Shown piece by piece: positions 1 through 15,649 of a stretch of DNA of 16,660 nucleotides (its first letter is position 1; the number at the start of each line of letters is the position of its first letter). Made by a program: the position numbers and the translations under genes. Source of the stretch: Flavobacterium sp. (lineage in GTDB: Bacteria > Bacteroidota > Bacteroidia > Flavobacteriales > Flavobacteriaceae); the NCBI GenBank assembly GCA_018062725.1, contig JAGORP010000037.1, positions 1 through 16,660 on the forward strand, given 5' to 3'. Under the pieces are notes generated by a model. The model saw nothing but the letters and a program-made list of their open reading frames with translations. It made no database searches and had not been told where the DNA came from.

Positions 1-2
1 GG

Positions 3-938
3 ATAGCTTTGGGCATAAATTATTTTAAAACTTTGGTTGGTTCTTTCAAAAATTGGCCGGTGTATTATTGGATGTGGGGCACAGGAATCGTATTAATGAT
101 TTATCATTTTACCGAAGCGCATCTTTGGTTGTTGCCTTATTTCAGAGAACATTTTGTGCAGAATTTAGCCATGCAATGGAAAGCCGGCGGTTCCTATGTT
201 GGTTCCTGGAACATGCTCGTGTATGGAACGGCTATTTATGTAATGACAAAAATCAATGGGGATGATAACTATGCAAGGTCGAGTAAAGCTTTTTTCTTTT
301 ATTTTTTAGGATTGACCAATTTGATGTTCGGTTGGGCGCATCACATTTATATTGTACCCACAGCTCCTTGGATACGTTATTTGGCTTACGGGATCAGTAT
401 GACCGAATGGATTATTCTGTTTTCAATTATTTATGATTGGAAAAGAGATTTATCGAAAGAGAAAAAGACTCAGTTTGCTTTAGCGTTTCAGTTTATGCTC
501 ATGGCCGATTTTTGGGTGTTTTTAAACCTTGTATTGGCTTTGTTGATTTCTATACCAGCGATCAATTTGTTTACGCACGGAACGCATATTACTGTAGCGC
601 ATTCTATGGGAACGACCATTGGGATAAATACACTGATATTGCTTTCTTCAATTACCTTTATTTTGGAATCAAATCACTGTTTTATAGCCATAAGAAGAAT
701 TAAAACAGGAATCCGTATTTTTCATAATTCGTTTATCCTTTTTTGGATTAGTTTGCTTTTGATGGGAGTTAAAAAAATCTATTGGTCACATTTTCAACCC
801 TTTCTTTCTTTTGGGAAATTTCAGGATTCGATGCATGGGTTGTATTTGCTCTTTGTGTTTTTTGGACTGGGAATTTTCGTGGGATTAGCGCTTATTGTAT
901 TTGAATTACTGAAAAATATTAAAAAACAACCGTTTTAA
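3..938 (+). CDS. NorB-like heme-copper oxidase superfamily subunit I, 5'-truncated by window edge
   Basis: The reading frame is open to the left edge (ATA GCT TTG...), so the TTG at 9 is not a credible start and the N-terminal helices are outside the window. Numbering from that TTG, 309 residues are visible, almost all hydrophobic helices. A His-His pair at 111-112 in a WAHHIY context matches the helix VII non-heme iron/copper ligands. Glu133 lies 22 residues later, the same spacing as the H258/E280 pair I recall for Pseudomonas cNorB, which favours a nitric oxide reductase-type protein over an oxygen reductase. His33 and Glu36 (YHFTEAH) are candidates for the helix VI ligand region. Helix X carries THGTHITVAHSMG; His198 fits the high-spin heme ligand, but the position of the second conserved His is Met200. 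Such proteins are often named cbb3-type oxidase subunit I in flavobacterial genomes. The probable role is membrane NO reduction to N2O, consistent with the nearby nos and ric genes. The exact subfamily is uncertain. Confidence 0.72.
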   Translation: MALGINYFKTLVGSFKNWPVYYWMWGTGIVLMIYHFTEAHLWLLPYFREHFVQNLAMQWKAGGSYVGSWNMLVYGTAIYVMTKINGDDNYARSSKAFFFYFLGLTNLMFGWAHHIYIVPTAPWIRYLAYGISMTEWIILFSIIYDWKRDLSKEKKTQFALAFQFMLMADFWVFLNLVLALLISIPAINLFTHGTHITVAHSMGTTIGINTLILLSSITFILESNHCFIAIRRIKTGIRIFHNSFILFWISLLLMGVKKIYWSHFQPFLSFGKFQDSMHGLYLLFVFFGLGIFVGLALIVFELLKNIKKQPF

Positions 939-962
939 TTTCAGATGTAAAATAAATATAAT

Positions 963-1637
963 TTATCGGAAAGCCAATTTTAGTCTAGCATCTGAAAACA
1001 GCTCCTTTTCCAAACTCTTCTTTGAATTTGGAAGTTCGGCTATAGTTTTTACATTATTTATGAAATGTTGTATGTAATATATTCCTGTATATTCATTGTA
1101 TTTTAAATAGTCAATCATTTCATTAATTTCTTCTTTTGCGAGTAATTTGGAGTGATAAGTTGTCCGAACTTCAAACGCAATTGTGGCATCTAACAAATGA
1201 TGTAAAGATTTTTCAAATTGATCAAATAAATCGGATTGAGTAATATAAGAAAACGAATTTTTAGTAGCCTTAAAATCTAATGAGACATAGTCTACCAGTT
1301 GTTGGTCAAGAAGATACTTTAAAACATCTGGTCTTGAACCATTAGTGTCAACTTTTACTAAAAAGCCCATATTTTTGATGGTTCGGATTTGATTTGCAAT
1401 GTCTTTGTGGAGTAAACATTCACCACCACTGAAAACTACGGCATCAAGTAATCCTTTCCGAGTTTCTAAAAAAGAAACGATGTTGGAAAAGGGAAATTTT
1501 CCTTTTCCAAACACAATTTCTGGATTGTAACAATACAAACACTGCATGTTGCAACCTGCATACCATAAGATACAGGCCGATTTATTAGGATAATCCAACA
1601 AAGTAAACGGTGTGATATTGAAAATGGGCTTCGTCAT
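963..1637 (-). CDS. nrdG: Anaerobic ribonucleotide reductase activating enzyme (radical SAM)
   Basis: This 224-residue cytosolic radical SAM protein would use a [4Fe-4S] cluster and S-adenosylmethionine to generate the glycyl radical on class III ribonucleotide reductase. The cluster motif CNMQCLYC is at residues 29-36 (C-x3-C-x2-C), and the SAM-contacting SGGE is at 70-73. The N-terminal ITPFTLLDYPNKSACILWYAGC is typical of NrdG-like activases of the pflA-like branch. The ATG follows the TAA of the small upstream ORF directly (TAAATG), so translational coupling is likely and the start is well fixed. It is the last gene of the ric-nrdD-nrdG unit. It converges on the NorB-like gene with only 24 bases between the stops and no visible hairpin. 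The family assignment is secure; that its substrate is the neighbouring split NrdD is inferred from position. Confidence 0.9.
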   Translation of the reverse strand: MTKPIFNITPFTLLDYPNKSACILWYAGCNMQCLYCYNPEIVFGKGKFPFSNIVSFLETRKGLLDAVVFSGGECLLHKDIANQIRTIKNMGFLVKVDTNGSRPDVLKYLLDQQLVDYVSLDFKATKNSFSYITQSDLFDQFEKSLHHLLDATIAFEVRTTYHSKLLAKEEINEMIDYLKYNEYTGIYYIQHFINNVKTIAELPNSKKSLEKELFSDARLKLAFR

Positions 1638-1796
1638 TTAACACTCTTTAAAATAGCTTCGTTGCTTGTGTTCTCCTTTTTTTCCAATATTAAAACTCTC
1701 TACTGGGCGATGATATCCCATCACTCTAGTATATACCAAGCATTTGGTTCTTAAATGTTGATTTTCTTCTAAAATCTGATTAGTTTTTGTTTTCAT
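1638..1796 (-). CDS. Separate glycyl-radical C-terminal piece of anaerobic ribonucleotide reductase (52 aa)
   Basis: This small ORF begins with ATG at 1796 and ends with TAA at 1640-1638, giving 52 residues. Residues 22-38 read TRVMGYHRPVESFNIG and are followed by KKGEHKQRSYF. This corresponds to the glycyl-radical segment that closes canonical NrdD proteins (E. coli type RVCGYLG...RPFN.GK..E...R). Gly27 in RVMGY is therefore the predicted radical-bearing residue. The large neighbouring NrdD ends just after its zinc motif and lacks this segment. The ORF overlaps the end of nrdD by 17 bases in the +1 frame and abuts nrdG (TAAATG). The most economical reading is a genuine split subunit that docks on NrdD, comparable in principle to the spare-part protein GrcA/YfiD of pyruvate formate-lyase. 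A programmed +1 frameshift or a sequencing error is less likely, because the joint linker would be about 20 residues longer than in E. coli and the ORF has its own start. Confidence 0.85.
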   Translation of the reverse strand: MKTKTNQILEENQHLRTKCLVYTRVMGYHRPVESFNIGKKGEHKQRSYFKEC

Positions 1797-3894
1797 AGTA
1801 TGTATTATTTTGATTTTCTAATAGGTTTTCGTCACATTTCGGACAAAATTCGTGTTCGCCGTTAAGGTAACCATGAATTGGACACACACTAAATACGGGT
1901 GTAACAGTGATGTAAGGTAATTTGAATTGAGTTAAAACCGTTTTAACGAAGTTTTTACAGGCTTCGGGAGAGCTTATTCTCTCGTTCATATACAAATGCA
2001 ATACGGTACCTCCGGTATATTTACATTGTAATTCATCTTGTATGAATAGTGCTTCAAACGGATCTTGGGTGAAATCAACAGGAATTTGAGAACTATTGGT
2101 GTAATAAATATTTTCATCCATTCCAGCTTGTAAGATGTTTGGATAGCGTTTTTTATCTTCTTTAGCAAAACGATACGTTGTCCCTTCAGCTGGCGTAGCC
2201 TCGAGATTGTAAAGATTTCCAGTAGCTTCCTGAAATTCTTTCATACGATTGCGAATGTAATCTAAAATTTCAATGGAAAGGGTATGTCCAAAAGGAGTAG
2301 TTATGTCTTCTTTATCTTCCGTAAAATTGCGAACCATTTCATTCATTCCATTAACGCCAATGGTTGAAAAGTGATTTCTAAAATGAGGCAAATATCTTTT
2401 GGTATACGGATATAAACCACGGTCATACATTTCTTGAATGAATTGTCGTTTCTTTTCCAAGGTTGATTGAGCGATTGTCAAGAGTTTTTCCAATTGAAAG
2501 AATAATGCTTCTTTTTTACCTTGATAAACATAGCCTAATCGCGCCATATTAATGGTTACCACACCAATACTTCCGGTCATTTCAGCACTACCAAATAATC
2601 CGTTACCTCGTTTTAATAGTTCTCTTAAATCGAGTTGTAAGCGACAACACATACTCCGAACAGCATTAGGTTTATAAGCATTCGGATTTTCGACTTTATT
2701 GCCGTTTTCGTCTAAATGAAATTGACTTCCAATGAAATTTTGAAAATAGGACGATCCAATTTTTGCTGTGTTTTCAAATAAGAGTTCGGTGTTTTCCCCT
2801 TGCCAGTCAAAATCTTCAGTAATGTTAACAGTTGGAATAGGGAAGGTGAAGGGTTGACCATTCGCATCGCCTTCCGTCATCACCGTGTAATATGCTTTAT
2901 TGATGAGGTTCATTTCGGGTTGAAAATGTTCGTAGCGCATTTCTATTAGCGAATTCACGCCACGTTCGTTGGCTCGGGCCAAAGTATTTTCATTGGTTAT
3001 GGTTTCAAATAAATGATGGTCATTTTTTGTCGGAATTTGTTCTTTTAAATCGGAAGGCACTACCCAATCTAAAGTGATATTTGTAAAAGGCGATTGCCCC
3101 CAACGAGCAGGTACATTTAAGTTGTAAACAAAACTGCGAACCGCTTTCAAGACTTCTTCAAAAGTCAAATTATCTTTGAAAACATAAGGCGCTAAATACG
3201 TATCGAAGGAGCTGAATGCTTGAGCGCCAGCCCATTCGCTTTGTAAAATTCCGAGAAAGTTAGCCATTTGCCCTAATGCTTCTCTAAAATGGGAGGGTGC
3301 TTTGCTTTCCACACGACCTCGAACACCATTAAAACCATCATTGAGTAAAACCCTTAAACTCCATCCCGCACAATAACCGGTCAGACAATCCAAATCATGA
3401 ATATGCAAATCTCCATTACGGTGGGCATATCCTTCTTCTTTGGAATAAATTTTATCCAACCAATAATTAGCGATGATTTTCCCTGCAACATTATTTACTA
3501 AACCCGAATTGGAATACGAAGTATTAGCGTTGGCATTAATACGCCAATCCGTTTGGGAAATGTATTCTTCTACGGTTTGCGTAGTGTCTACATAAGTTGT
3601 GTCGTGATTCAATCCTTGAATGTGTTCCCGTTGTAATTTGCGTGTGTGACGGTACAACATAAAGGAACGCATGACTGTAAAATATTGTTTTTCAAAAAGC
3701 GTTTTTTCGATAATGTCCTGAATTTCTTCGACAGCCCAAGTTTCTTTTGAATGAACGGCTGCCAAAACTTGTTCAAAAACACGCTCATCAATCGGAAGGG
3801 AAACACTTGTAAAACTCTTGACTATGGCATCCTTAATTTTAAAAGGTTCAAAAGGTTTATAATCGCCGTTTCTTTTGATAACATATTTTTCCAT
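1780..3894 (-). CDS. nrdD: Anaerobic (class III) ribonucleoside-triphosphate reductase, large part lacking the glycyl-radical tail
   Basis: The 704-residue protein reduces ribonucleotides to deoxyribonucleotides under anoxia. Residues 1-95 form an ATP-cone regulatory domain (begins MEKYVIKRNGDYKPFEPFKI). The catalytic barrel follows, with typical class III stretches such as GDLHIHDLDC (161-170), a MCCRL Cys pair at 415-419 and TGSIGVVTIN at 440-449. Near the C-terminus, CPIH (671-674) and CPKC (684-687) make a zinc site with C-x2-H and C-x2-C halves. The protein then ends 17 residues later without the RVxGY glycyl-radical motif. That motif is on the overlapping small ORF at 1638-1796, so this polypeptide alone should be catalytically incomplete. 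The gene follows ric after a 39-base gap and precedes the small ORF and nrdG, forming an anaerobic or NO-stress operon. Assignment to NrdD is secure; the split is read directly from the sequence. Confidence 0.93.
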   Translation of the reverse strand: MEKYVIKRNGDYKPFEPFKIKDAIVKSFTSVSLPIDERVFEQVLAAVHSKETWAVEEIQDIIEKTLFEKQYFTVMRSFMLYRHTRKLQREHIQGLNHDTTYVDTTQTVEEYISQTDWRINANANTSYSNSGLVNNVAGKIIANYWLDKIYSKEEGYAHRNGDLHIHDLDCLTGYCAGWSLRVLLNDGFNGVRGRVESKAPSHFREALGQMANFLGILQSEWAGAQAFSSFDTYLAPYVFKDNLTFEEVLKAVRSFVYNLNVPARWGQSPFTNITLDWVVPSDLKEQIPTKNDHHLFETITNENTLARANERGVNSLIEMRYEHFQPEMNLINKAYYTVMTEGDANGQPFTFPIPTVNITEDFDWQGENTELLFENTAKIGSSYFQNFIGSQFHLDENGNKVENPNAYKPNAVRSMCCRLQLDLRELLKRGNGLFGSAEMTGSIGVVTINMARLGYVYQGKKEALFFQLEKLLTIAQSTLEKKRQFIQEMYDRGLYPYTKRYLPHFRNHFSTIGVNGMNEMVRNFTEDKEDITTPFGHTLSIEILDYIRNRMKEFQEATGNLYNLEATPAEGTTYRFAKEDKKRYPNILQAGMDENIYYTNSSQIPVDFTQDPFEALFIQDELQCKYTGGTVLHLYMNERISSPEACKNFVKTVLTQFKLPYITVTPVFSVCPIHGYLNGEHEFCPKCDENLLENQNNTYYENKN

Positions 3895-3933
3895 GATGAG
3901 CGTGTTTATTTGGTTGGTTTAGTTTAGGAATAA

Positions 3934-4662
3934 TTAGTCGAGATTAAATTGAGTTTCCATGGCTTGCGCTTTTGGAAATACAATATTATTTTCTAGATGT
4001 ATGTGTTTGTGTAAATCTTGTTCAAATTCTTTTAGCATAGCATAAGTAACTTTGTAGGTTTCACAGGCATCTGCAGGCGGATTGTAATCATTTGTCAATT
4101 GAGCAATTTTACGGAAGCGTTCTCCTTCATTTTCATGTTCGTCTTGCATCATCGCAATCGGATTGATTACGGTTCCGAAAGGAGGTTGTTCAATGGAGAC
4201 ATGGTCTCTAAGTGCGTAATACATTTTTTTAACAAATGGAAATAAAATCAGTTCTTCTTTCTTCATGTGTTGGGCCAATTCACCTGCACAAATTTTAAAG
4301 TGAAGCGTAATTTCAAAAAGTTCCGGATGTCTTTCTCCATGCACTTTACAAAGTTTATCAAGATAGAAAAGAAGTGCGGTAGATTTTTCTTCTACATAGC
4401 GGTGGTGCGTTTTTTCAATGTAGTCAATCAGTAAGTCTACTGGCCAAGATTTAAAATCAATTGTGTTATCCGATTTCGATTCTAATACTACATTTAATTC
4501 GTTTTGAATCAATGTAGGATCTAACCCTTTTTTTTCACAAACTTCTTCTAAAGTTCGGTTGCCTTTGCAGCAAAAATCTATTCCGTATTTGGAAAAAATG
4601 GCCGCGGTTCTAAAATCACCGGCTACAAATTCTCCTACAGTTATTTGTTCTAAAGTATTCAT
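3934..4662 (-). CDS. ric: Iron-sulfur cluster repair di-iron protein (Ric / ScdA / YtfE family)
   Basis: This 242-residue cytosolic protein belongs to the family that restores Fe-S clusters damaged by nitric oxide or oxidants. Residues 1-55 are the ScdA-type N-terminal domain with GIDFCCKGNRTLEEVC (27-42). The rest is a hemerythrin-like four-helix bundle. Candidate di-iron ligands are His86 (KTHH), His108 (KVHG), His132 with Glu136 (HMKKE), His176 (DEHENEG) and His222 with Glu224 (HIHLENN). The length matches full-length Ric. It is the first gene of the nrd operon and is preceded by a palindrome and -10 element matching those of the nos operon, which fits NO-linked induction. The ATG at 4662 lies about 35 bases from the inferred transcription start. 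The family is well supported; which Fe-S proteins it serves (NadA next door is one candidate) is inference. Confidence 0.92.
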   Translation of the reverse strand: MNTLEQITVGEFVAGDFRTAAIFSKYGIDFCCKGNRTLEEVCEKKGLDPTLIQNELNVVLESKSDNTIDFKSWPVDLLIDYIEKTHHRYVEEKSTALLFYLDKLCKVHGERHPELFEITLHFKICAGELAQHMKKEELILFPFVKKMYYALRDHVSIEQPPFGTVINPIAMMQDEHENEGERFRKIAQLTNDYNPPADACETYKVTYAMLKEFEQDLHKHIHLENNIVFPKAQAMETQFNLD

Positions 4663-4703
4663 AATAAATATGTTTTAAAATTAAAGTATCAATTATTGTC
4701 TTT

Positions 4704-4711
4704 CAAAAGTA
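4704..4711 (-). promoter_or_regulatory. Predicted ric promoter -10 element (TACTTTTG)
   Basis: Read on the minus strand, this octamer is TACTTTTG, an exact match to the Bacteroidota sigma consensus TAnnTTTG. It lies 42 bases upstream of the ric ATG. Its proximal end is 37.5 bases from the centre of the palindrome at 4734-4749. A start site about 6-7 bases downstream would place that palindrome near -43, as in class II activation by Crp/Fnr proteins. The consensus is known; the function here is inferred. Confidence 0.6.
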
Positions 4712-4730
4712 AGACGGTAAGACGGTACCG
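4711..4730. repeat. Tandem 8-bp repeat AAGACGGT x2 running into palindrome CGGTACCG
   Basis: AAGACGGT occurs twice in tandem (4711-4718 and 4719-4726), and the second copy runs into the self-complementary CGGTACCG (4723-4730). The block lies between the predicted ric -10 element and the Crp/Fnr-like palindrome, a position where a bound repressor could block ric transcription. The repeat is seen directly; any regulatory role is unproven. Confidence 0.45.
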
Positions 4731-4733
4731 AAA

Positions 4734-4749
4734 TATGATTAAAGTCATA
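4734..4749. promoter_or_regulatory. Predicted Crp/Fnr-type operator between ric and nadA (TATGATTAAAGTCATA)
   Basis: The site has inverted arms TATGA and TCATA separated by six bases, which resembles the Fnr-type TTGAT-N4-ATCAA. An almost identical site, TATGATCGTAATCATA, precedes the nos operon at 14434-14449. Here it sits at nearly equal distance from a minus-strand -10 for ric (37.5 bases) and a weaker plus-strand -10 for nadA (36.5 bases), so it could act on both divergent genes. The regulator is not in this window. The repeat is visible; binding by an Fnr/DNR-like protein is inferred. Confidence 0.6.
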
Positions 4750-4770
4750 GAAAATGGACTTTTTTGGTAG

Positions 4771-4778
4771 TTATTTTG
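4771..4778 (+). promoter_or_regulatory. Possible nadA promoter -10 element (TTATTTTG)
   Basis: TTATTTTG differs at one position from TAnnTTTG. It ends 36.5 bases from the centre of the palindrome at 4734-4749 and 20 bases upstream of the nadA ATG. The spacing mirrors that on the ric side, which is the main reason for listing it. In such an AT-rich region a one-mismatch match can occur by chance. Confidence 0.4.
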
Positions 4779-4798
4779 TAATCAATTAAACACAACAC

Positions 4799-5728
4799 AT
4801 GGAAAGTTTAAAAGAGAAGATACTGCAGTTAAAAAAAGAGAAAAATGCTGTGATTTTAGCACATTATTATCAGCAACCCGAAATTCAAGAAATTGCCGAT
4901 TATGTTGGAGATAGCCTAGGATTATCCCAAGAAGCAGAAAAAGTTAACGCTAAAATTATCGTGTTTGCAGGGGTGCATTTTATGGCCGAAACGGCAAAAT
5001 TACTTAACCCATCAAAAAAAGTTTTATTGCCCGATTTAGCAGCGGGTTGCTCATTGGCCGAATCCTGTCCGCCGGATATTTTTAAAAAATTTATAGATGC
5101 CCATCCTAATCATATCGTGATTACTTATGTGAATTGTTCGGCTGAAATTAAAGCTTTGAGTCATATCGTTTGTACGTCTTCAAATGCCGAAAAAATAGTA
5201 AATTCTGTTCCCGAAAATATTCCGATAATTTTTGCCCCCGATAAGAATTTGGGGAATTACATCAATAAAAAAACAGGCCGGAAAATGCTTCTTTGGGATG
5301 GAAGTTGTGTCGTTCATGAAGCCTTTTCTTTAGACAAATTGATCACTTTACACAAACAACATCCAGACGCTACAATTATTGCGCATCCCGAATCGGAAAG
5401 TCATATTTTGGAAACAGCGAGTTATATCGGCTCAACTTCAGGTATGATTCATTTTGTGAAACAAAGTCCGAAAAAAAAGTTCATCGTCGCTACCGAAGCC
5501 GGAATTTTATACAAAATGCAAGAAGAAGTACCCGAAAAGATCTTAATCCCTGCGCCTTCAGTAGAAGACAATACTTGTGCTTGTAGCGAATGTGGTTATA
5601 TGAAACTCAATACACTTCAAAAAGTGTACGATTGTTTACTTTTAGAGTCTCCCGAAATTGAGGTGCCCAAAGCAATTGCTGATAAGGCCATTGTTCCCAT
5701 CAAACGAATGTTAGAATTGTCTAAATAA
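4799..5728 (+). CDS. nadA: Quinolinate synthase A
   Basis: The enzyme condenses iminoaspartate with dihydroxyacetone phosphate to quinolinate in de novo NAD synthesis, using an oxygen-labile [4Fe-4S] cluster. The 309-residue length fits the family. [20 protein letters not shown] at 21-40 is the hallmark N-terminal motif. Likely cluster ligands are Cys84 ([10 protein letters not shown]), Cys170 ([10 protein letters not shown]) and one cysteine of CACSEC (260-265), most probably Cys265 just before GYMKLN. Further family motifs are AHPE (195-198) and GSTSGM (211-216). The stop TAA shares one base with the ATG of nadB (TAATG), so the two are translationally coupled and supply the same pathway. 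Divergence from ric across a shared palindrome suggests co-regulation with Fe-S repair under anoxia or NO, which is inference. Confidence 0.95.
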
Positions 5729-7287
5729 TGAAGATAGAAACGGATTACTTAATTTTAGGCTCTGGTATTGCTGGGATGACAGTCGCTATCAAATTGGCAC
5801 AACAATTTCCTGACCGAAAAATATTGATTGTTACCAAAGCTACAGAAGACGAATCCAATACCAAATACGCACAAGGCGGAATTGCCATTGTAAGTGACGG
5901 GGTAAACGACGACTTTGAAAAGCATATTAACGATACTTTAGTTTGTGGTGACGGTTTATGCGATCCTGAAATCGTTGAAATGGTTGTTAAAGAAGGACCA
6001 AAACGCCTAGCGGAATTGATTCAATGGGGCACTCATTTTGATACAACTACTGATGGAACTCTCGATCTTGGAAAAGAAGGAGGTCATTCTAATAATCGGG
6101 TTGTACATTTTAAAGACCAAACGGGTAAAGAAATTGAACGAGCTATTTTGGTAAAAGCGCATCAGAAAAAGAACATTGAAATTCTCGATTTTCATTTTGC
6201 GATCGATTTACTTGCGACTAATAACAAATGTTATGGAGCTTATGTTTTAGATGAAAAAAGCAATAAAATTGATACGATATATTCTCGATTTACCATTTTA
6301 GCGACAGGCGGCATCGGACAAGTCTACCAACAAACAACAAATCCTAAAATTGCCACTGGTGATGGAATTGCGATGGCAATTCGGGCCAAAGCAATTGTAA
6401 AGGAAATGGAATTTATCCAGTTTCATCCGACTGCTTTGTATGCACCCAATTCGGCTTCAACATTCTTAATTTCGGAAGCGGTTCGTGGTTTTGGCGGACA
6501 ATTGAAAACCAAAAACGGACATCGGTTTATGTTCGATTATGACCAACGAGGAGAATTAGCGTCGCGAGATATTGTTTCGAGAAGTATTGAAGCCGAACTT
6601 AAAAAATCGAATGAGGCTTGTGTGTATTTAGATTGTACTCATTTGAATAGCATTGAATTCCAAAAACATTTTCCTACAATTTATCAGAATTGCTTGTCGG
6701 AAGGGATTGATGTTACTGTTGATTGGATTCCAGTAATTCCGACGCAACATTATTTATGTGGTGGAATTGTCGTGAACCGAGAAGGTAAAACTTCAATTGA
6801 AAACTTATTTGCTTGTGGTGAATGTTCCCGAACCGGTTTACATGGCGCCAATCGATTGGCCTCTAATTCTTTATTGGAAGCGCTAGTGTATGCACATCAA
6901 ATTTTTAACGCTTTAAAGGAATTGGATCTCCAAGAAAGAGAAACTAAAGTTATCTTTCCAGATTATTTTTATCGAAAACGTAATCCGTTAGACTCAAATT
7001 TTACCCATGACCTTAGAGAAAAACTGCAAAATAGCATGCAACAAAATGTTGGAATTGTTCGAAATGATATTCAGCTGAAAAGCACTTTAAAAGAGTTACT
7101 TTCCTGGAAAAAAGAATGCCAAAAAGTAGAACAGGAACATTCGGTTTCTAAAGATTTTTTGGAACTTAAGAATTGTATTGAAGTCAGCATACCAATTGTG
7201 TCTTTTTCATTAGAACGCAGTCAAAACAAAGGAAGTTTTTATAAAGAAAAGAATCTACAAACCTCCAATTCTAACCAAACTGCCTAA
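5728..7287 (+). CDS. nadB: L-aspartate oxidase
   Basis: This 519-residue flavoprotein oxidises L-aspartate to iminoaspartate, the NadA substrate, and in this family can use oxygen or fumarate as acceptor. The FAD-binding GSGIAGM is at 11-17. Other family signatures include KYAQGGIAIV, EGGHSNNRVVHFKDQTGKEI, EFIQFHPTAL, TQHYLCGGI and the near-C-terminal flavin motif ACGECSRTGLHGANRLASNS. The length is close to the usual ~530-540 residues, with a helical C-terminal domain. It overlaps nadA by one base. Its last 33 bases overlap, tail to tail, the end of the minus-strand CopD-like gene; both frames look genuine, and there is no space for a standard terminator between the two operons. Confidence 0.95.
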   Translation: MKIETDYLILGSGIAGMTVAIKLAQQFPDRKILIVTKATEDESNTKYAQGGIAIVSDGVNDDFEKHINDTLVCGDGLCDPEIVEMVVKEGPKRLAELIQWGTHFDTTTDGTLDLGKEGGHSNNRVVHFKDQTGKEIERAILVKAHQKKNIEILDFHFAIDLLATNNKCYGAYVLDEKSNKIDTIYSRFTILATGGIGQVYQQTTNPKIATGDGIAMAIRAKAIVKEMEFIQFHPTALYAPNSASTFLISEAVRGFGGQLKTKNGHRFMFDYDQRGELASRDIVSRSIEAELKKSNEACVYLDCTHLNSIEFQKHFPTIYQNCLSEGIDVTVDWIPVIPTQHYLCGGIVVNREGKTSIENLFACGECSRTGLHGANRLASNSLLEALVYAHQIFNALKELDLQERETKVIFPDYFYRKRNPLDSNFTHDLREKLQNSMQQNVGIVRNDIQLKSTLKELLSWKKECQKVEQEHSVSKDFLELKNCIEVSIPIVSFSLERSQNKGSFYKEKNLQTSNSNQTA

Positions 7288-7698
7288 AATTAACATGGCT
7301 ATGCCAATAATGGTGATGGTTACAATTTGAATCGATACAGGTAATAATCGTTCGGATTTGACTTTCGGAAACACAAACAATTGGGCATTAATTGCCATTC
7401 CGAATGTTATGATTAATAACGTTAATTTGGTCGAAACGATTTTTTCGATACTAGTTGTAAACGAAAACCATTTGGTAAAAGTAACATCATAATCATAGGC
7501 CATTAAAATGCCGGTCACAACCAAAATAATAAGCGATGGCATGCCTATTGGCTCAAATTTATCTTTAAAATTAATAAGAATTTGAGCTTCTTTCTTTTTT
7601 ATTGCTTCTGGCAAATACCGAAAGCATAAAAAAAGATGACCACCTACCCAAATTGATGCGGCCAATAAATGACAAATTAAGATAAGATGATGTGTCAT
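7255..7698 (-). CDS. CopD-like four-helix membrane protein at the end of the nos operon
   Basis: This 147-residue integral membrane protein has four predicted helices, roughly at residues 3-25, 50-68, 88-108 and 120-140. The first carries ICHLLAASIWVGGHLFLCF, with His10 and His21 in a spacing typical of the CopD / DUF2214-like family linked to copper handling and possibly heme. Its ATG shares one base with the stop of the globin gene (TAATG), making it the final gene of the nos transcript. A role in copper supply to NosZ or in a membrane redox step would suit the context, but the sequence does not prove either. The 3' end overlaps nadB by 33 bases. Confidence 0.7.
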   Translation of the reverse strand: MTHHLILICHLLAASIWVGGHLFLCFRYLPEAIKKKEAQILINFKDKFEPIGMPSLIILVVTGILMAYDYDVTFTKWFSFTTSIEKIVSTKLTLLIITFGMAINAQLFVFPKVKSERLLPVSIQIVTITIIGIAMLILGSLVRIGGL

Positions 7699-8069
7699 TA
7701 GCTCAAAGTTTTATACATCATAGCAGCAGATATATTTAACGCTCTATTTTTGATTTCTTCGGCTTTTACCCCTTCAAAGAGTTTGTCTACGGTTTCGGTG
7801 AAAAGCTTATTCCAATGTCCAAAATGTGTTGGGTTCATCGGACTTTTCTCATGTAATTCTTTGTGTTTTGCCATTGGATTTCCGTCATAATTTCCAGTAA
7901 AAAAAAGAATGTTTTCCCAAAAATTATACATTTTAGGCAAATGATTTTCCCAATTTACATGGGCAACATCGTTAAATAAATAGCCTATTATTTCATCGGT
8001 TTTTACTTTTTCGTAAAAGGTATTGACCAATTTCTCGATGTCTTTACGGTTTCGGATATCGGTTTTCAT
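7698..8069 (-). CDS. Group III truncated (2/2) hemoglobin
   Basis: This is a 123-residue heme globin of the group III truncated class (Campylobacter Ctb type). Visible family residues are Tyr19 in LVNTFYEKV (B10 position), the KMYNFWENILF stretch of the E helix (47-57), the GNPMAKHKEL segment with His69 as the probable proximal F8 ligand (His73 is the alternative), and HFGHW with Trp86 at the G8 position. Group III globins are linked to NO or peroxynitrite chemistry, oxygen scavenging or ligand transfer, though roles vary. The ATG lies one base after the nosY stop, and its stop overlaps the CopD-like ATG. It is therefore embedded in the nos operon and was probably recruited to deal with NO or O2 during denitrification. 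There is no N-terminal signal, so it is cytosolic. Confidence 0.88.
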   Translation of the reverse strand: MKTDIRNRKDIEKLVNTFYEKVKTDEIIGYLFNDVAHVNWENHLPKMYNFWENILFFTGNYDGNPMAKHKELHEKSPMNPTHFGHWNKLFTETVDKLFEGVKAEEIKNRALNISAAMMYKTLS

Positions 8070-8070
8070 G

Positions 8071-8838
8071 TTACAAATCTTTTTTGTTGAATTTTTTAAG
8101 TGAGATTAAAAACGGAACAATCGCCCATAGACACAGCAACACAAATGAAATTACTAAGCCGACTGCCGTTCCGAAGAAATCTTTAAAAATTGCTCCAGTA
8201 TAACCCATCATTGCCGAAACGTCTAAATGCATCAGAATTTGAATGCGTGCTAAATCAATTGGACTCATAGCAGTTATGCCTACCATAGCATTTTCTATTG
8301 GATAATCAGACAATTGGAACAATAAAAAGAGTACAATACCATCAAACAATAAAGCAAAAAATAACCATATCATGATCGCAATCCCGATGCCTTTTGCCTT
8401 GTCACGCGTTACTATTGAACTCAAGAAGGCCAAGGCTACAAAAATGATTGAAATGAGACAACCCACTACAATCATCATGAGCCCAAGACTATCAGGTGCA
8501 TTGATTAACAACGGAATTCCGGCGCCAATTCCAAATGCTAGTACCATAGATAGGGATAATCCCAGGAACAAACTTGTCCAAATTTTTCTACGTTTGATAG
8601 GTTGACTTAGAAGTAATTCAATAAATTCTGAGCTGTTATACAAATAAATGGTGGCAAATAAGATGGATACCAGTGGAACAGTGAAAAGAATTACGTTGAG
8701 AATGGTCAGTAATCCTTTAGCAGAATTGTCTTCTAAGGCAAATGAACTCCAGGAAAGTGCGGCCAAAATTAAGGTGTACGCCAACACGATTTTGTTCCTA
8801 AGTATATCGAGTAATATGATTTTAATGATTCGGTTCAT
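8071..8838 (-). CDS. nosY: NosY, permease of the Nos ABC transporter
   Basis: This 255-residue membrane protein has about six hydrophobic segments (near residues 17-34, 49-67, 94-111, 118-140, 150-175 and 226-245). It resembles ABC-2 type permeases, with LYNSSEFIELLLSQPIKRRKIW after the second helix as the coupling-helix region. With NosF and periplasmic NosD it forms the complex needed to mature the tetranuclear CuZ centre of NosZ. Its start overlaps the end of nosF by 17 bases, and the globin starts one base after its stop. The order nosD-F-Y supports the name, since the sequence class alone would only give ABC-2 permease. Confidence 0.9.
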   Translation of the reverse strand: MNRIIKIILLDILRNKIVLAYTLILAALSWSSFALEDNSAKGLLTILNVILFTVPLVSILFATIYLYNSSEFIELLLSQPIKRRKIWTSLFLGLSLSMVLAFGIGAGIPLLINAPDSLGLMMIVVGCLISIIFVALAFLSSIVTRDKAKGIGIAIMIWLFFALLFDGIVLFLLFQLSDYPIENAMVGITAMSPIDLARIQILMHLDVSAMMGYTGAIFKDFFGTAVGLVISFVLLCLWAIVPFLISLKKFNKKDL

Positions 8839-9544
8839 GGCGGTTGTTTTTTAAGATTTTAGCAATCGCTTTAGAGATTCTGGTTTCATCGGTTTCAGCC
8901 TTTATAATTGCTGTATTTTTGTGAAAATGAACTTTTCCATCTTGCATAAAAATAATTTCGGTAATTAAATCGTCCAATTCACTTAGTAAGTGAGATGTAA
9001 TGAGAATTAGTTTGCCTTTTTCTTTTTCACGGATGATTTTTTCTTTTAAAATTTCGGAAGCTAATGGATCTAAACCAGCAGTGGGTTCGTCTAAAATTAA
9101 TACTTCCGGATTGAATAAGAAAGCCAAAACGGCGCTAACTTTTTGCGTAGTTCCTCCCGAAAGTGTTCGCATTTGTTTGTCGAACATTTTTTCTAATTCG
9201 AAAGCATGAATTAACTCTTCGTCTAAATTAGTTGAGGTATTACGCACTTTTTTAATCATTTCAATGATTTGACCAATGGTCATGTTGTCGGGATAGCGAC
9301 CAATTTGTGGCATATAGCCAATATTTTCTCGGTACAAATAGTCACCGAGAATAGATTTTTTATTAAAAGTAATAGCACCAGTATCGGGTATAACCATGCC
9401 TAAAATAGCTTTGATTAAAGTCGTTTTTCCGCAACCATTGGGTCCTATTAATGCAATACATTCACCTTTTTGAAATGAAAGGTTAATGTCTTGAAGCGCG
9501 GCTAATTTGCCGAACTTTTTAGTAATATTTTGTATTTCAATCAT
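8822..9544 (-). CDS. nosF: NosF, ATPase of the Nos ABC transporter
   Basis: This is a 240-residue ABC ATPase. The Walker A motif GPNGCGKT is at 34-41, the Q-loop Gln at 80, the signature LSGGT at 128-132, Walker B LILDEP at 149-154 with GLDP following, and the switch His at 185. It would energise NosY-NosD in copper-centre assembly of NosZ. It overlaps nosD by four bases (ATGA) and nosY by 17, so the three are co-translated. The ATPase class is certain; the Nos role rests on its position between nosD and nosY. Confidence 0.92.
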   Translation of the reverse strand: MIEIQNITKKFGKLAALQDINLSFQKGECIALIGPNGCGKTTLIKAILGMVIPDTGAITFNKKSILGDYLYRENIGYMPQIGRYPDNMTIGQIIEMIKKVRNTSTNLDEELIHAFELEKMFDKQMRTLSGGTTQKVSAVLAFLFNPEVLILDEPTAGLDPLASEILKEKIIREKEKGKLILITSHLLSELDDLITEIIFMQDGKVHFHKNTAIIKAETDETRISKAIAKILKNNRHEPNH

Positions 9545-10770
9545 AAGGGCAGTGACTTCATTAGGGGCGTATTGTCTATAAAATTATCGGGTGTAATGCT
9601 AGGGAGTACTTTTTCAGATTTATCTAAAAGGGTAATCATAAAACTACGATACAAGATCATGGCCGACGGATTGTTTTCGGTTAAAACGGCAAACAAACTC
9701 AGCGGATGATAAGGAACATCACCAATACCATCTTTGTTCAAATCATAGCCTTCATATTTGTCCCAGTAATTACTATTAAAAGTATTGAGTACTAAACTTC
9801 CGTTGGTACTAATGTCAAAAGTATTGCCAACATAATTATTGTATACGATTTCATTTTCCATGCAACTGGCTTGTATTTTCATGCCCCATCCATTGGCTTC
9901 AAAAATATTTTTTTCGACTTTAATTCGAGAGGTACCTTCCATATAAATCCCGGAAGTGTTACGAGCAAAACGATTGTTAAAAATATAACTGTCGGAAATC
10001 TCTTTTAGTAATAATCCATAGGCAGAATCTCCCCAATTTTCTTCAAAATAGTTATTAAACATTTTTACATTTTTAGTAAACATCACGGCAACTCCGGCAC
10101 CATTTCCTTTGAATACATTGGTGATATAGGAATCGTCATTCGAAAACATAAAATGCAAGCCATAACGAATATTATTATTTGAAACGTTTCGCCAAATGAT
10201 CGATTGGGTAACAAATTCAAAATAAATTCCGTCACGATGGCCTGAAATTTTGTTACCTATGATCTGTAGGTTTTCACTTTTCCAGCAGTGAATGCCGTTT
10301 CCTATGAGTTGTTCTTGTTTACCATACGCTTTAATCGTATTGTTTTTAACGATACTGTTTTTACAATTTTGAAGGTAAATTCCAAAGAAATTATTATCTA
10401 AAAAATTATTTTCAAGATGAACAAAATTTCGATCATAAACTTTAATTCCGCAAGGATCATCTAGGGCTGCATAACCAGAATTGATAATTTTAAACCCTTT
10501 GACAATCACACTGTCGGCTGCTATAGATAAGACTTCAAATTTATTTTGCCCGTCGAGTGTTGGGTAGTTTTTACCTAAAAAAGTGATTTTTTTGTTAATA
10601 ATAATATTTCCTTCTTTGTAAATTCCTTGGGAAACGATTATCGTATCTCCGTCATTTGCCATTGAAATTGCCTTTTTGATTGTTTTAACAGGAAAGGCTT
10701 TTCCAACAGAAATGATTTTAGCATTGCTTATAGCGTAAAAAAAGAATAAGATGTAAACTAATTTTTTCAT
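9541..10770 (-). CDS. nosD: NosD, periplasmic copper-centre maturation protein
   Basis: This 409-residue protein has a signal peptide (MKKLVYILFFFYAISNA) and many short repeats typical of a right-handed beta-helix (CASH / NosD repeat), for example NNFLDNNFFGIYLQNCKN and the NNTIKAYGKQ, NKISGHRDGI and NRFARNTSGI rungs. The C-terminal part has SNYWDKYEGYDLNKDGIGDV, a NosD-family signature, then a short helical tail. NosD works in the periplasm with NosF and NosY to deliver copper or sulfide to NosZ. It overlaps nosL and nosF by four bases on each side. The family assignment is strong. Confidence 0.93.
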   Translation of the reverse strand: MKKLVYILFFFYAISNAKIISVGKAFPVKTIKKAISMANDGDTIIVSQGIYKEGNIIINKKITFLGKNYPTLDGQNKFEVLSIAADSVIVKGFKIINSGYAALDDPCGIKVYDRNFVHLENNFLDNNFFGIYLQNCKNSIVKNNTIKAYGKQEQLIGNGIHCWKSENLQIIGNKISGHRDGIYFEFVTQSIIWRNVSNNNIRYGLHFMFSNDDSYITNVFKGNGAGVAVMFTKNVKMFNNYFEENWGDSAYGLLLKEISDSYIFNNRFARNTSGIYMEGTSRIKVEKNIFEANGWGMKIQASCMENEIVYNNYVGNTFDISTNGSLVLNTFNSNYWDKYEGYDLNKDGIGDVPYHPLSLFAVLTENNPSAMILYRSFMITLLDKSEKVLPSITPDNFIDNTPLMKSLPL

Positions 10771-11198
10771 TTATAGTTGTTGTAAACTTCTGCCCAATTA
10801 GTAGATTGAGCGTCGAGTTTTTTACCGAATTCGATTTGATCTGTGGCCGAACTAAAAGCAGCTATATTACCTCTCATGGGTGAATTGATTTTTCCACCTT
10901 TAATGAAATAGGCTGTTTCGACCGGAATAAGAGTGTTATCTTTTAGGTAATCATTTACAAAAAATGATTGATAAGGAACGACCGTATTTGACTTAGCAAA
11001 TTGTATCATACAAGCAGCATCATCAAACTTATGATACCTCCCTTTTTTAGTGATTAATTCGGCTGCAAATTTGCCATTTGAAATGGTCATTTTACAGTAA
11101 TCACAAAAATCTGAATTGATTTTGATAGGTTTGGGTTCTTTGGAGCCACAGGATAACAAGGTTAAAATTGAAATACTGGTTATAATGATGGTTTTCAT
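10767..11198 (-). CDS. nosL: NosL, copper-chaperone lipoprotein
   Basis: This 143-residue lipoprotein has a signal peptide ending LTLLSC, with lipidated Cys17. The NosL hallmark CDYCKM is at 32-37, followed by FDDAACM with Met64 and INSPMRG with Met108, which fit known Cu(I)-binding positions of the family. It would hand Cu(I) to apo-NosZ in the periplasm. Its ATG comes two bases after the stop of the NosB-like gene, and its end overlaps nosD by four bases (ATGA), so translation is coupled through nosL-D-F-Y. Confidence 0.93.
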   Translation of the reverse strand: MKTIIITSISILTLLSCGSKEPKPIKINSDFCDYCKMTISNGKFAAELITKKGRYHKFDDAACMIQFAKSNTVVPYQSFFVNDYLKDNTLIPVETAYFIKGGKINSPMRGNIAAFSSATDQIEFGKKLDAQSTNWAEVYNNYK

Positions 11199-11200
11199 GA

Positions 11201-11785
11201 CTAATTATTTTTAGTAAGCTTGTATTCTTTTAGTACCACTAAAGATAATAAAACACCAGCTACGGCCAACATCCAGCCACCCGTATCAGGTATCGAATAG
11301 GCCCCAAAATTTAATAATTGTTTGTATCCGATCAGTGGCGGTTGATAAGCCATGCCGGGTACTCTAATAGCTGCATTTGGATCAAGATTATGTCCGTATT
11401 GATAATTCCATCGGTAGAAATCGACAGCGGCTAACGCAATAAAAAATACATAAGTAAATAGGAAAACTAAGACAGCTTTTCTTTTGGCTATCCAAATTAA
11501 TACTATAGAAATAAGGGCAAAAACACTAAATATATAAGGTAAAACGGTGAATTCAAAAAAGTTTTCGGTATGTAATGTTGCCATTCCAATATAGTGATTC
11601 AATCCGTTGATAATTTCTACATCACCGCCTATTTTATTGGCGTGTAATCGAAGTACAAGTCCTTCAGGATATTGAGGTGCATCAAGTTGAATTTGCCACA
11701 TAGGAACAAATAACGCGCCGAAAAACAATAGTCCTGTTATCAAAAGAAATAGTTTTGATAAAAACGATAGTTGCATTTTTTTCAT
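11201..11785 (-). CDS. NosB-like membrane protein following nosZ
   Basis: This is a 194-residue protein with four predicted membrane helices (about 9-29, 80-100, 104-123 and 168-186). Two outward-facing segments are rich in possible metal ligands: His48, His64, Met68 and His72 between helices 1 and 2, and His132 and Met145 between helices 3 and 4. Clade II nos clusters, such as that of Wolinella, carry a four-helix membrane protein called NosB directly after nosZ. Position and topology fit that role, but I cannot prove homology by eye, so no symbol is given. It lies 51 bases downstream of nosZ, beyond a strong hairpin, and just before nosL. A part in copper delivery or electron transfer to NosZ is plausible. 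Confidence 0.6.
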   Translation of the reverse strand: MKKMQLSFLSKLFLLITGLLFFGALFVPMWQIQLDAPQYPEGLVLRLHANKIGGDVEIINGLNHYIGMATLHTENFFEFTVLPYIFSVFALISIVLIWIAKRKAVLVFLFTYVFFIALAAVDFYRWNYQYGHNLDPNAAIRVPGMAYQPPLIGYKQLLNFGAYSIPDTGGWMLAVAGVLLSLVVLKEYKLTKNN

Positions 11786-11799
11786 TTCGTTGGAGAAAA

Positions 11800-11828
11800 A
11801 AAGGGAACAAATAAAATTTGTTCCCTTT
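11800..11828 (-). terminator. Perfect 13-bp hairpin between nosZ and the NosB-like gene
   Basis: AAAGGGAACAAAT (11800-11812), a three-base loop and ATTTGTTCCCTTT (11816-11828) form a perfect stem. On the minus strand the second arm runs into a T-rich tract (CCCTTTTTTT), giving the form of an intrinsic terminator eight bases after the nosZ stop. Since nosL-D-F-Y must lie downstream, it probably acts as a partial terminator or 3' stabiliser that raises nosZ mRNA over the accessory genes. Confidence 0.75.
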
Positions 11829-11836
11829 GGTTAATT

Positions 11837-13816
11837 TTATTTGGTTGCCTTTGGTAAGTTGGTTCCCACACTCCAGGAGAGCGGAACATTACTTCCGGCT
11901 GGAGAAACTCTCACATAACCTTGCATTTCTTGGTGTAAGGCACTACAGAAATCGGTACAGTACATAGGATACATACCTGTCTTTTTAGGAAGCCATTTCA
12001 GCGTAGTTGTTTCCCCTGGCATAATAAGTAACTCCCCATTATCGGCACCTTTGATCGCAAATCCGTGTGGTACATCCCAATCTTGTTCTAAATTGGTTAC
12101 GTGGAAATAAACTTCGTCACCTACTTTAATTCCTTCAATATTATCGGGAGCAAAGTGAGATCGGATAGAGGTCATATACACATCTACTCTATTTCCTTTG
12201 CGAACCACTTTGGCTTCTTTTTCACCTTTGGCGGCAAAAGGATGGTTGTTATCGGAAATTTTATAGAATTTCAACTGACCGTTATTTCGGATTAATTCGG
12301 CTGGAGCGGCTTGAGCATAATGCGGTTCACCAATCGTTGGAAAATCTAATATTAACTGCATCTTATCGCCACTAATATCAAATATTTGAGCAGATTGAGC
12401 CAATTCTGGACCAGTTGGTAAATAGCGATCTTTGGTAATTTTATTGTAAGCGATTAAGTATTTTCCAAATGGTTTTTTACTATCACCACCAGGGATACAT
12501 AAGTGACCTACAGAATAATAAGTTGGAACTCTGTCTAATACTTTCAATGATTTAATATCCCATTTTACAACTTCAGAAGACACAAAGAAAGTAGTGTAAG
12601 CATTTCCTTTACCGTCAAATTCGGTGTGTAAAGGACCTAAACCTGGTTTTTGGACTTCACCATGTAAAGCGGCTTCATATTTTACAACCGGAATTCCACC
12701 ATAATCACCTTCAAATTTTTTATCTTTAATTGCTCCCATTAATTTATCAAAACTGAATACTGGAATTAAAGCGGCCAATTTACCTGAACCCACGATGAAT
12801 TCACCTGATGGATCTACGTCGCAACCATGAGGAGATTTTGGACAAGGAATCATGTAACAAATATCTTTTAAAGCAGCAGCATCCAATACTAATACTTCGT
12901 TTTTCATTTCAGAAGTAGCGGAATGTGTTTTTTCATTCCACTTGTTGTGCGCGTATTTTACGGTTTGTTTTTTTCCTTTTCCCGCTTTGATATATTCTTC
13001 TGCTTTTTTCCAGTTTACAGCCATGATAAAGTCTTTGTCACGTTGAGAAGCATTTACTTCTAGTAATGTATTGGCTTGTTCGGTATTGTAGCAAGAGAAG
13101 AAGAACCAACCGTGTGATTTTCCTTTACCGGCATGGGAAAGGTCAAAATTTACCCCTGGCGTTACGATTTGAAACGCTAAGTCCATTTCACCTTCCTTAC
13201 CTACTTTTACAAAACTGATATGACCTTTGAAGTTTTCTTTATAGGTGTTGATGGCAACATCTCCATTGGCATAATCAGGAGGTACGCTAAAACGTGTTCC
13301 TGCAACTACATATTCGGTATTTTCGGTAATGAACGGAGAAGAGTGATTTCCACCACTGTTGGGTAACTCAATAATCTCGGCTGTTTTGAAAGTTTTCAAA
13401 TCTATTCGAGCAATACGTGGCGTATTGTTGGCATTACCAAAAACCCAACGGCCGTCTACTTCTCCATTGGTTTGTGACATTTCGGTGTGATGTAAATCAT
13501 CCCAAGGCACGAAACCATTTGAAGTATTTAACATTGGTTTGGTTTCTTCACTATATCCCCAGCCTTTTTCTGGGTCTACCGAGAACACCGGAATTACTCT
13601 GAATAGTCTTCCACTCGGAAGTCCATAAACACTTAACTGTCCGCTGAATCCTCCCGATACAAAATTATAAAACTCATCATATTTACCTGGTGCCACGTAG
13701 GCTTTCTGAGCAGCATCACCACTAACAGCGTCCCCGGAATTTTTTGGTTTACAGGAAGTAAACAAAGTACTACCTAAGGCAATTGCAAAAAGTACCTTTA
13801 CAAACTTATTTTTCAT
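11837..13816 (-). CDS. nosZ: Nitrous-oxide reductase, clade II (atypical) type
   Basis: This 659-residue copper enzyme reduces N2O to N2 in the periplasm. It lacks a twin-arginine signal. Instead MKNKFVKVLFAIALGSTLFTSC looks like a Sec lipoprotein signal with Cys22, a trait of clade II enzymes. CuZ histidine candidates in order are His109 and His110 (DDLHH), His158 (GGNHSS), His330 (SPHG), His397 (LHTEF), His438 (GHLC) and His499 (EPHY). The C-terminal cupredoxin domain carries the CuA set: His584 region (VPHGF), Cys620 and Cys624 (CTDFC), His628 and Met631 (HQEM). Length fits the family. The preceding gene is a lipoprotein cytochrome c and the following genes are maturation factors. The stop is followed by a perfect hairpin. 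NosR and NosX, usual for clade I, are absent here, consistent with clade II. Confidence 0.96.
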   Translation of the reverse strand: MKNKFVKVLFAIALGSTLFTSCKPKNSGDAVSGDAAQKAYVAPGKYDEFYNFVSGGFSGQLSVYGLPSGRLFRVIPVFSVDPEKGWGYSEETKPMLNTSNGFVPWDDLHHTEMSQTNGEVDGRWVFGNANNTPRIARIDLKTFKTAEIIELPNSGGNHSSPFITENTEYVVAGTRFSVPPDYANGDVAINTYKENFKGHISFVKVGKEGEMDLAFQIVTPGVNFDLSHAGKGKSHGWFFFSCYNTEQANTLLEVNASQRDKDFIMAVNWKKAEEYIKAGKGKKQTVKYAHNKWNEKTHSATSEMKNEVLVLDAAALKDICYMIPCPKSPHGCDVDPSGEFIVGSGKLAALIPVFSFDKLMGAIKDKKFEGDYGGIPVVKYEAALHGEVQKPGLGPLHTEFDGKGNAYTTFFVSSEVVKWDIKSLKVLDRVPTYYSVGHLCIPGGDSKKPFGKYLIAYNKITKDRYLPTGPELAQSAQIFDISGDKMQLILDFPTIGEPHYAQAAPAELIRNNGQLKFYKISDNNHPFAAKGEKEAKVVRKGNRVDVYMTSIRSHFAPDNIEGIKVGDEVYFHVTNLEQDWDVPHGFAIKGADNGELLIMPGETTTLKWLPKKTGMYPMYCTDFCSALHQEMQGYVRVSPAGSNVPLSWSVGTNLPKATK

Positions 13817-13833
13817 TATAATTGATTTTAAAT

Positions 13834-13869
13834 AAGATTGGTTAGCACTTTAGCGGTTCAACCAATCTT
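13834..13869. repeat. Inverted repeat between the cytochrome c gene and nosZ
   Basis: AAGATTGGTT (13834-13843) and AACCAATCTT (13860-13869) make a 10-bp perfect stem with a 16-base loop. It lies in the 63-base gap between the cytochrome c stop and the nosZ start. The following minus-strand bases (ATTTAAAATC) form only a poor T-tract, so it may be an RNA processing or stability element or a weak terminator. Confidence 0.5.
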
Positions 13870-13879
13870 TGGTTTTGGT

Positions 13880-14377: not shown

Positions 14378-14404
14378 GATTGGATATGTTATTAATTCAT
14401 TACC

Positions 14405-14412
14405 CAAATTTA
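14405..14412 (-). promoter_or_regulatory. Predicted nos operon -10 element (TAAATTTG)
   Basis: On the minus strand this is TAAATTTG, an exact TAnnTTTG match. A start site near 14398-14400 would leave about 21 untranslated bases before the ATG at 14377 and place the centre of the palindrome at 14434-14449 near -42. The consensus is known for Bacteroidota; its use here is inferred from sequence and spacing. Confidence 0.65.
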
Positions 14413-14433
14413 GAAATCAAATGGGTCTTATTT

Positions 14434-14449: not shown

Positions 14450-14535
14450 TCTATCTAAAATTCAGGAATTAACGTTTTGGGTCTAATTTGTTGATATGCC
14501 AATCGGTAATTAGTTGAAGAGTTTGTTCTTTAACA

Positions 14536-14563: not shown

Positions 14564-14565
14564 GA

Positions 14566-15640: not shown

Positions 15641-15649
15641 AGTTTTGGC

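Follow-up and report, generated by a model that had tools for sequence, protein, structure and literature searches.

A putative two-chain class III ribonucleotide reductase with a separately encoded glycyl-radical domain

Contig JAGORP010000037.1 of the Flavobacterium sp. assembly GCA_018062725.1, which we analysed over its positions 1 to 16,660 (the whole stretch of 16,660 nucleotides, hereafter the window), carries a locus for a class III anaerobic ribonucleotide reductase (RNR) in which the NrdD protein ends without a glycyl-radical motif, this motif being found on a separate 52-residue open reading frame (ORF) between nrdD and the activase gene nrdG. Judging from sequence, we consider it very probable (roughly 0.92) that the locus encodes a two-chain class III RNR. 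The initial annotation had proposed such an enzyme, and the proposal is supported by the conservation of the split, by small genes unlinked to nrdD, by fused relatives and by the finding that none of 14 related genomes holds a second complete nrdD.

The split nrdD locus

All features of the locus lie on the reverse strand. The large chain (nrdD, 1780..3894) has 704 residues and consists of an ATP-cone (PF03477), the NrdD catalytic barrel and, at its end, the zinc motif CPIHGYLNGEHEFCPKC (1834..1884), whose C671, H674, C684 and C687 would bind zinc as in the rest of the family. CPKC and 17 further residues form its C-terminal end, and no RVxGY glycyl-radical motif occurs in the 704 residues. 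This motif is carried by the small ORF (1638..1796) as RVMGY (residues 24-28, 1713..1727), the predicted radical residue being Gly27 (codon 1716-1718). The ATG of the small ORF lies 17 bases inside the nrdD end in a different frame (overlap 1780..1796), and its TAA abuts the ATG of nrdG (963..1637; TAAATG), which encodes a radical S-adenosylmethionine (SAM) activase above the cut-off of TIGR02495 (NrdG2). Base for base, this is the arrangement described in the initial annotation. Pfam NRDD (PF13597) matched the large chain over profile positions 2-529 (E 1.1e-160) and the small ORF over positions 532-562 (E 1.1e-6, 28 bits at a cut-off of 26.2); thus, the two ORFs together make one NrdD. At E<=1, NRDD was the sole Pfam match of the small ORF, its NCBIfam matches were all ribonucleotide reductases, and homology to the C-terminus of pyruvate formate-lyase (PFL) was not found. 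The large chain scored 1079 bits against NF006126/PRK08270 (cut-off 548).

The residues expected of an active enzyme are conserved on both chains. Cys416-Cys417 in the finger loop of NrdD (2644..2649) is invariant in the 40 rows of our large-chain alignment, and Cys417, the counterpart of the GCR cysteine in the aligned P. copri NrdD, is predicted to be the thiyl-radical cysteine. C671, C684 and C687 are invariant and H674 nearly so in the same alignment (A3), while RVMGY is invariant in 15 of 15 rows of the small-chain alignment (A1). The small chain also has a cysteine, Cys19 (1740-1742), eight residues before the radical glycine; a cysteine is found at this Gly-8 position in 78/78 genomic, 78/80 viral and 30/38 fused sequences, with threonine in 8 of the 38 fused ones. 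We do not claim it as a zinc ligand acting in trans, since some fused relatives with the C/H/C/C motif have threonine there.

In the mechanism that we propose, the small chain would contribute no more than the glycyl-radical loop and the C-terminal tail; ATP-cone, zinc motif and the catalytic barrel with its thiyl cysteine would all belong to the large chain. The small chain would bind in place of the usual C-terminal domain, beside the zinc motif; NrdG would place the radical on Gly27, either at the docked small chain or before docking, and the radical would then pass from Gly27 to Cys417, where the large chain would use it to reduce nucleotides. With the radical carried on a small protein of its own, the cell could exchange copies that oxygen has cleaved or nitric oxide (NO) has damaged while keeping the large chain, and small chains could also come from a phage. 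We infer assembly in trans, radical placement, exchange and phage use from gene structure and content.

Conservation of the split and its origin

Using the 52-residue ORF as query against proteins of about 29-91 residues, we obtained 2410 matches at E<=1 (top E 5e-25; the best 120 were listed), some of which may be the ends of fused NrdDs on short contigs. Genome contigs were scanned with NrdD, and the best 80 of 242 relatives, which belong to Flavobacterium, other Bacteroidota and Campylobacterota, made up 81 loci together with the window. A separate small ORF was present in 79 of the 81, that is in 79/79 loci that could be judged, the contig breaking off in L010 and L058; the script scored 77 as split, and L033 (with the variant RPIE) and L026 were recognised separately. 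Even though the loci are not all independent (45 distinct 36-residue blocks among 78 loci), the 2410 short-protein matches and the 79 of 81 loci exclude chance as the origin of the arrangement.

The geometry of the two ORFs varied among the 77 scripted loci. Relative to nrdD, the small ORF was in the +1 frame in 61, in the +2 frame in 8 and in the same frame in 8, and its ATG, as chosen by the script, lay between -41 and +818 bases from the nrdD stop. The small frame was open past the nrdD end in 66 loci, and in four same-frame loci (L038, L045, L064, L080) the nrdD stop alone stood between the parts. In seven (L009, L066, L071, L072, L073, L075, L079), a further stop after the end of nrdD closes the frame of the small ORF, and the chains could there be joined neither by a single frameshift nor by reading through the nrdD stop. 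In L026, nrdD and the small ORF are separated by an unrelated long ORF, in L072 by two ORFs, NifU-type and proteasome-chaperone-like. Codon usage was compared over a 34-codon block in 79 sequences (3069 pairs). The small ORF gave a median ratio of nonsynonymous to synonymous differences (pN/pS) of 0.085, with pN 0.068 and a pS of 0.80, which is near saturation, so that the value is to be taken as a ratio of proportions; the other two frames gave 1.7 and 2.7. Thus, the small ORF is under strong purifying selection. Scanning 14 genomes of split loci with PF13597, we found in each one core and one small glycyl-radical domain (GRD), no more than about 1.6 kb apart on one contig, these forming in one genome (G005) a single match across one TAA, and a second complete nrdD was found in none of the 14.

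To survey the spread of the split, forms were called by the coordinates of the PF13597 matches. In Bacteroidota, 28 of 395 genomes matched, 27 of them above the cut-off, and 10 were split, including the centre genome (G001), known to be split beforehand, and 17 fused; split cores scored 532-554 bits, fused proteins 633-675 (15 genomes) or 337-358 (2 genomes). The search of Bacteroidota suggested by the initial annotation has thus yielded the split in 10 of 27 nrdD-bearing genomes, and it occurs in Campylobacterota and Pseudomonadota as well. Among 298 Campylobacterota genomes, 149 matched and 126 of these were split by profile (including G010 and G009, known beforehand), 98 with a core ending at positions 528-537 and 28 with both parts in the same frame, interrupted by one to three stops. 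All 126 also had a match to the small-chain model. The remainder comprised 21 genomes fused without stops, one of another subfamily (G632) and one partial (G531). By these profile matches, the split is the usual form among the nrdD-bearing Campylobacterota sampled. Their fused NrdDs fell at 648-667 bits with an RITGY-type motif (17) or at 560-582 bits (4); the former 17 (loci L137-L153) represent a different type of fused NrdD, whose motif is RRITGYLVGT-like in place of RVMGYHRP.

The split was also met on plasmids, for which 28 named records were surveyed and 7 opened: it was present in Cupriavidus necator H16 (pHG1), Paracoccus denitrificans, Azospira and Sulfuricurvum kujiense, and an Acidiphilium plasmid NrdD was fused. 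In pHG1, the small gene (WP_011154154) has 142 bases and an AAGGAG sequence ahead of its ATG. NrdDG has been described as essential for complete denitrification in C. necator H16 in the part of the report available to us (PMC2864759), which, if so, makes a split NrdD locus genetically important, the small gene by itself not being covered. The large chain of pHG1, without the radical domain, has a computed mass of 76.19 kDa. This reportedly equals the NrdD mass in Siedow et al. 1999. In Bradyrhizobium japonicum p2S06B (L192, 1656-3974), a small gene and nrdG follow a core with a frame change near 3725, so that this core may be broken or misread in that record; no gene is listed for it. On the conjugative Azospira plasmid pAZI09 (L195), the split nrdD, the small chain and nrdG lie between the class I RNR alpha and beta genes; an integrase and a Tn3 transposase come next.

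Gene fusion is the usual sign of two chains that work as one. With the GRD of a read-through chain as query against proteins of about 422-1342 residues (E<=0.001), we accepted 38 of 39 candidates as fused relatives (P0122-P0159), including proteins of Chitinophaga silvisoli and of an Arcticibacter metagenome-assembled genome (MAG); their GRDs are 66-94% identical to the L038 small chain. The stretch that corresponds to their linker is longer in the split loci, as the initial annotation had expected from the window: the CPxC tail and the N-terminal extension of the small chain add up to 25-51 residues (median 43; 77 loci with script-chosen starts) versus 8-33 in the 38 fused proteins. A quick tree of NrdD cores without the GRD comprised 96 rows, 60 split and 36 fused, and left out eight near-identical fused proteins and most Flavobacterium loci, with L068 not extracted. 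It required 12 changes between split and fused against 29 in shuffles; well supported branches force at least seven of the 12, and the tree does not settle in which direction each went. Fused proteins stood beside split ones (P0138/P0139 by L072, L158 by L156). Long branches were flagged for L196, L108, L109 and P0140, and odd composition for five rows, including three split Pseudomonadota cores.

Several observations weigh against two chains. In the window, the small ORF has no clear Shine-Dalgarno site; in 70 of the 77 loci, the window included, the open part of the small frame reaches back at least as far as the nrdD stop; and the case is built on sequence. An AlphaFold model of the L038 read-through chain, in which both parts are therefore tethered, reached only moderate confidence, with a predicted local distance difference test score (pLDDT) of 73.8 and a predicted template modelling score (pTM) of 0.72; it was low around the radical loop, blocks covering residues 731-760 having mean pLDDT values of 44-58, and in a structure comparison its NrdD matches showed the expected fold only. 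The open frames bear on programmed frameshifting or stop read-through, by which one fused protein would be made: taken alone, these 70 loci do not exclude frameshifting or, in the four same-frame loci, read-through of one stop, and the 28 of 149 Campylobacterota genomes with core and small part in one frame, interrupted by one to three stops, point the same way. Frame, gap and intervening sequence vary, however, seven loci have the additional stop, whole genes stand between the parts in L026 and L072, and in two Campylobacterota genomes (G486 and G620) small genes lie at least 95 kb away or on other contigs. As a general mechanism, frameshifting or read-through is contradicted by the variable frame and gap, the extra stops and the unlinked small genes, and we judge it very improbable. 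A sequencing or assembly frameshift, or a decaying nrdD, is what a single genome would suggest, where an ORF ends early and the motif appears in another frame; yet the same structure recurs in isolates and MAGs of many groups, the small ORF is under purifying selection, and the split gene is the sole nrdD in 14 genomes. Recurrence, selection and sole-copy status contradict error or a pseudogene, to which we assign a negligible probability. Together, the conserved split, the varying frame and spacing and the purifying selection exclude error, decay and a general frameshift mechanism, in agreement with the argument of the initial annotation against a simple frameshift error, and leave the two-chain enzyme as our favoured explanation.

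Small genes away from nrdD, in several copies and on viral contigs

At E<=1e-6, a model built from the 15 small chains of A1 matched 185 of 397 Campylobacterota genomes (fused NrdDs can be among them); 168 of the 185 had one copy and 17 had two or three. Ten chosen genomes were opened for copy positions. G486 and G620 have three small genes each, all distant from nrdD, and in each genome one of them is paired with an nrdG-like gene far from nrdD (L187, L184). G582, G617 and G641 have one small gene near nrdD and one elsewhere, and G631 contains, besides its intact nrdD, a second one that is spread over two frames and accompanied by its own small gene. The small protein of this second nrdD is identical to that near the intact nrdD (L175, L181, L189, L190). 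Six unlinked copies adjoin ORFs that appeared phage-like by eye (L176, L182, L178, L188, L177, L185). When seven genes flanking these six were scanned against PHROGs, a neighbour of phage function was found for four of the six, namely an endolysin (L188), a tail assembly chaperone (L182), a MuB-like transposition protein (L185) and, weakly, an Rz-like spanin (L176); the families beside L177 and L178 are of unknown function. In Bacteroidota, G244 contains, besides an intact fused nrdD, a 108-residue open frame matching NRDD positions 488-560 (L135), which may be either a remnant or a second kind of free domain, and the locus also holds a short radical-SAM, NrdG-like ORF.

Searching IMG/VR with A1 gave 186 stretches and 184 relatives, of which 80 were kept (L198-L277; 60 distinct 36-residue blocks, 49 clusters at 90% identity). 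Any of these records may be a fragment, and their viral status is a prediction; four of the contigs are 108-212 kb long. An RVMGY ORF was present in 80/80, and neither an NrdD core nor NrdG was found in the fetched part of 79 of them. By PF13597 over the whole contigs, 77 matched around the GRD alone, L213 had the GRD and a marginal match at 503-529, L214 had no match above threshold despite its visible RVMGY ORF, and L203 was the single contig with both NrdD core and GRD. Ten proteins neighbouring the small gene on seven of the contigs were scanned against PHROGs, and five contigs showed virion or lysis functions: a tape measure (L249), a major head and a neck protein (L238), a tail fibre (L265), an endolysin (L253) and a minor head protein (L204). 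L230 gave a lipoprotein and unknown PHROG families, and L201 no match. The three small chains scanned (L230, L198 and the window) all match phrog_4132, labelled 'unknown function'. Since L198 and L208 share their 36-residue blocks with the prophage-like copies L178 and L188, the viral and the prophage evidence are partly the same. Among cultured phage records (INPHARED, tblastn), the small chains L176 and L270 had no match and L230 had two weak ones, to annotated NrdDs, and the viral evidence therefore consists of the IMG/VR contigs and the prophage-like regions only. A stand-alone small gene (protein WP_012972376.1) also lies directly after a CHAP-domain gene on the Allochromatium vinosum plasmid pALVIN01 (L194/L278); in the 35 kb of it that were retrieved, NrdD core and NrdG were neither annotated nor found by tblastn. 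This plasmid carries a siphovirus-type gene.

The surroundings of nrdD were examined in 84 loci. NrdG is near nrdD in 82, a RIC-type gene in 41, nearly all of them Flavobacterium-type and none in Campylobacterota, and a NorB-like gene in 12. In the window, the neighbourhood has an NO and nitrous oxide (N2O) context comprising a COX1-family gene, a RIC-type hemerythrin, a globin, NosL and NosZ. The RIC/ScdA-type hemerythrin gene, given here as context only, lies upstream of nrdD (3934..4662, reverse strand; ScdA_N and Hemerythrin matches) and belongs to a family with a repair role. Close to the nrdD operon, positions 7255-13816 contain an N2O reductase region (NosZ, NosL and Nos-like ORFs) and a bacterial globin. 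This context fits a replacement of damaged radical subunits and does not prove it.

These copies and neighbours bear on why the radical domain is separate. If two obligate chains had simply drifted apart, the enzyme would be a fixed heteromer and the split neutral, with no role in exchange or repair; the one small gene in 168 of 185 matching genomes, its place within about 1.6 kb of the core in 14 of 14 genomes opened and the roughly 12 interconversions on the tree, as for a nearly neutral trait, agree with this, but the 17 Campylobacterota genomes with two or three copies, the phage-function neighbours of four of six unlinked phage-side copies, one of them weak, and the 79 of 80 viral contigs with a small gene and no core do not, and we regard a neutral split as possible but rather doubtful. 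Alternatively, the small chain would be a consumable spare part, renewed after oxygen or NO damage, and viral copies would serve the host enzyme as Y06I of phage T4 does. The unlinked, multiple and viral copies argue for such a system, as do the RIC-type and NorB-like neighbours, the nos and NO-related region of the window and the precedent of YfiD and Y06I, in so far as it is described in the available part of PMC8683613. Against it stand the need of split hosts for the small chain from the start, whereas YfiD rescues an already complete enzyme, and the possibility that RIC and NorB neighbours merely mark anaerobic denitrifiers, RIC being nearly confined to Flavobacterium-type loci; moreover, no cultured phage record in INPHARED was found to carry such a gene. 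On balance, we lean slightly toward a spare-part system. For an exchangeable or spare-part role of the small chain with phage use included, we see about even odds. Evenly poised, in our estimate, is also the proposal that phages which lack NrdD yet carry its radical subunit as a free protein turn on, renew or commandeer the host anaerobic RNR, whose split form would make the radical carrier replaceable. The interchangeable subunit envisaged by the initial annotation has thus received indirect support from the multiple, unlinked and viral copies, while its renewal after oxygen or NO damage is something that we still infer.

Relation to known enzymes and stand-alone radical domains

In the literature surveyed, as far as its text was available, class III RNR consists of a single chain whose radical domain is C-terminal, and a form with the glycyl-radical chain encoded separately was not found described in the full-text literature, most subscription papers being outside its scope. 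At NCBI, such small proteins are named 'anaerobic ribonucleoside-triphosphate reductase', so that databases already see the domain. A two-chain form, if true, would change the annotation, purification and modelling of NrdD, and nrdD with nrdG alone should yield a dead enzyme. It would offer a natural system for testing the exchange of a radical subunit after oxygen or NO damage, and the viral copies would point to phage control of the host's anaerobic supply of DNA precursors; phage use, if true, would give ribonucleotide reductases their first spare-part system and phages an auxiliary metabolic gene of a new kind.

By sequence and by model, the nearest solved relatives are canonical class III NrdDs (P. 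copri, T. maritima, S. thermophilus and phage T4), which share the PF13597 core, the ATP-cone, the finger-loop cysteine, the zinc motif and an NrdG-type activase. A single C-terminal domain of P. copri NrdD, residues 676-739 with Gly711, is made up of zinc site and radical loop according to the part of PMC11226230 available, whereas the window chain stops after the zinc motif and has its radical loop on a second protein. The 38 fused NrdDs, presumed to be of the NF006126/PRK08270 type (RVMGYHRP), resemble the window family but are one chain. RNRs in pieces, some of them functional, are known from phages, as nrdA of Aeh1 and nrdD in T-even phages, phiAS4 and 949, but these splits are ascribed to introns, inteins, homing endonucleases and unexplained breaks, no free-standing radical domain being described in the accessible part of that account (PMC3653736). 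The closest parallel in kind is GrcA/YfiD and T4 Y06I, which are likewise small stand-alone glycyl-radical domains and also phage-borne (PMC8683613, available in part); there, spare parts for other glycyl radical enzymes are raised as a possibility, the validated ones being YfiD and Y06I, both for PFL. A complete parent enzyme in the cell, which is a trait of the GrcA/YfiD system, was found in 0 of 14 genomes of split hosts. GrcA/YfiD and Y06I supplement a complete PFL after cleavage, whereas the window-type small chain matches NRDD instead.

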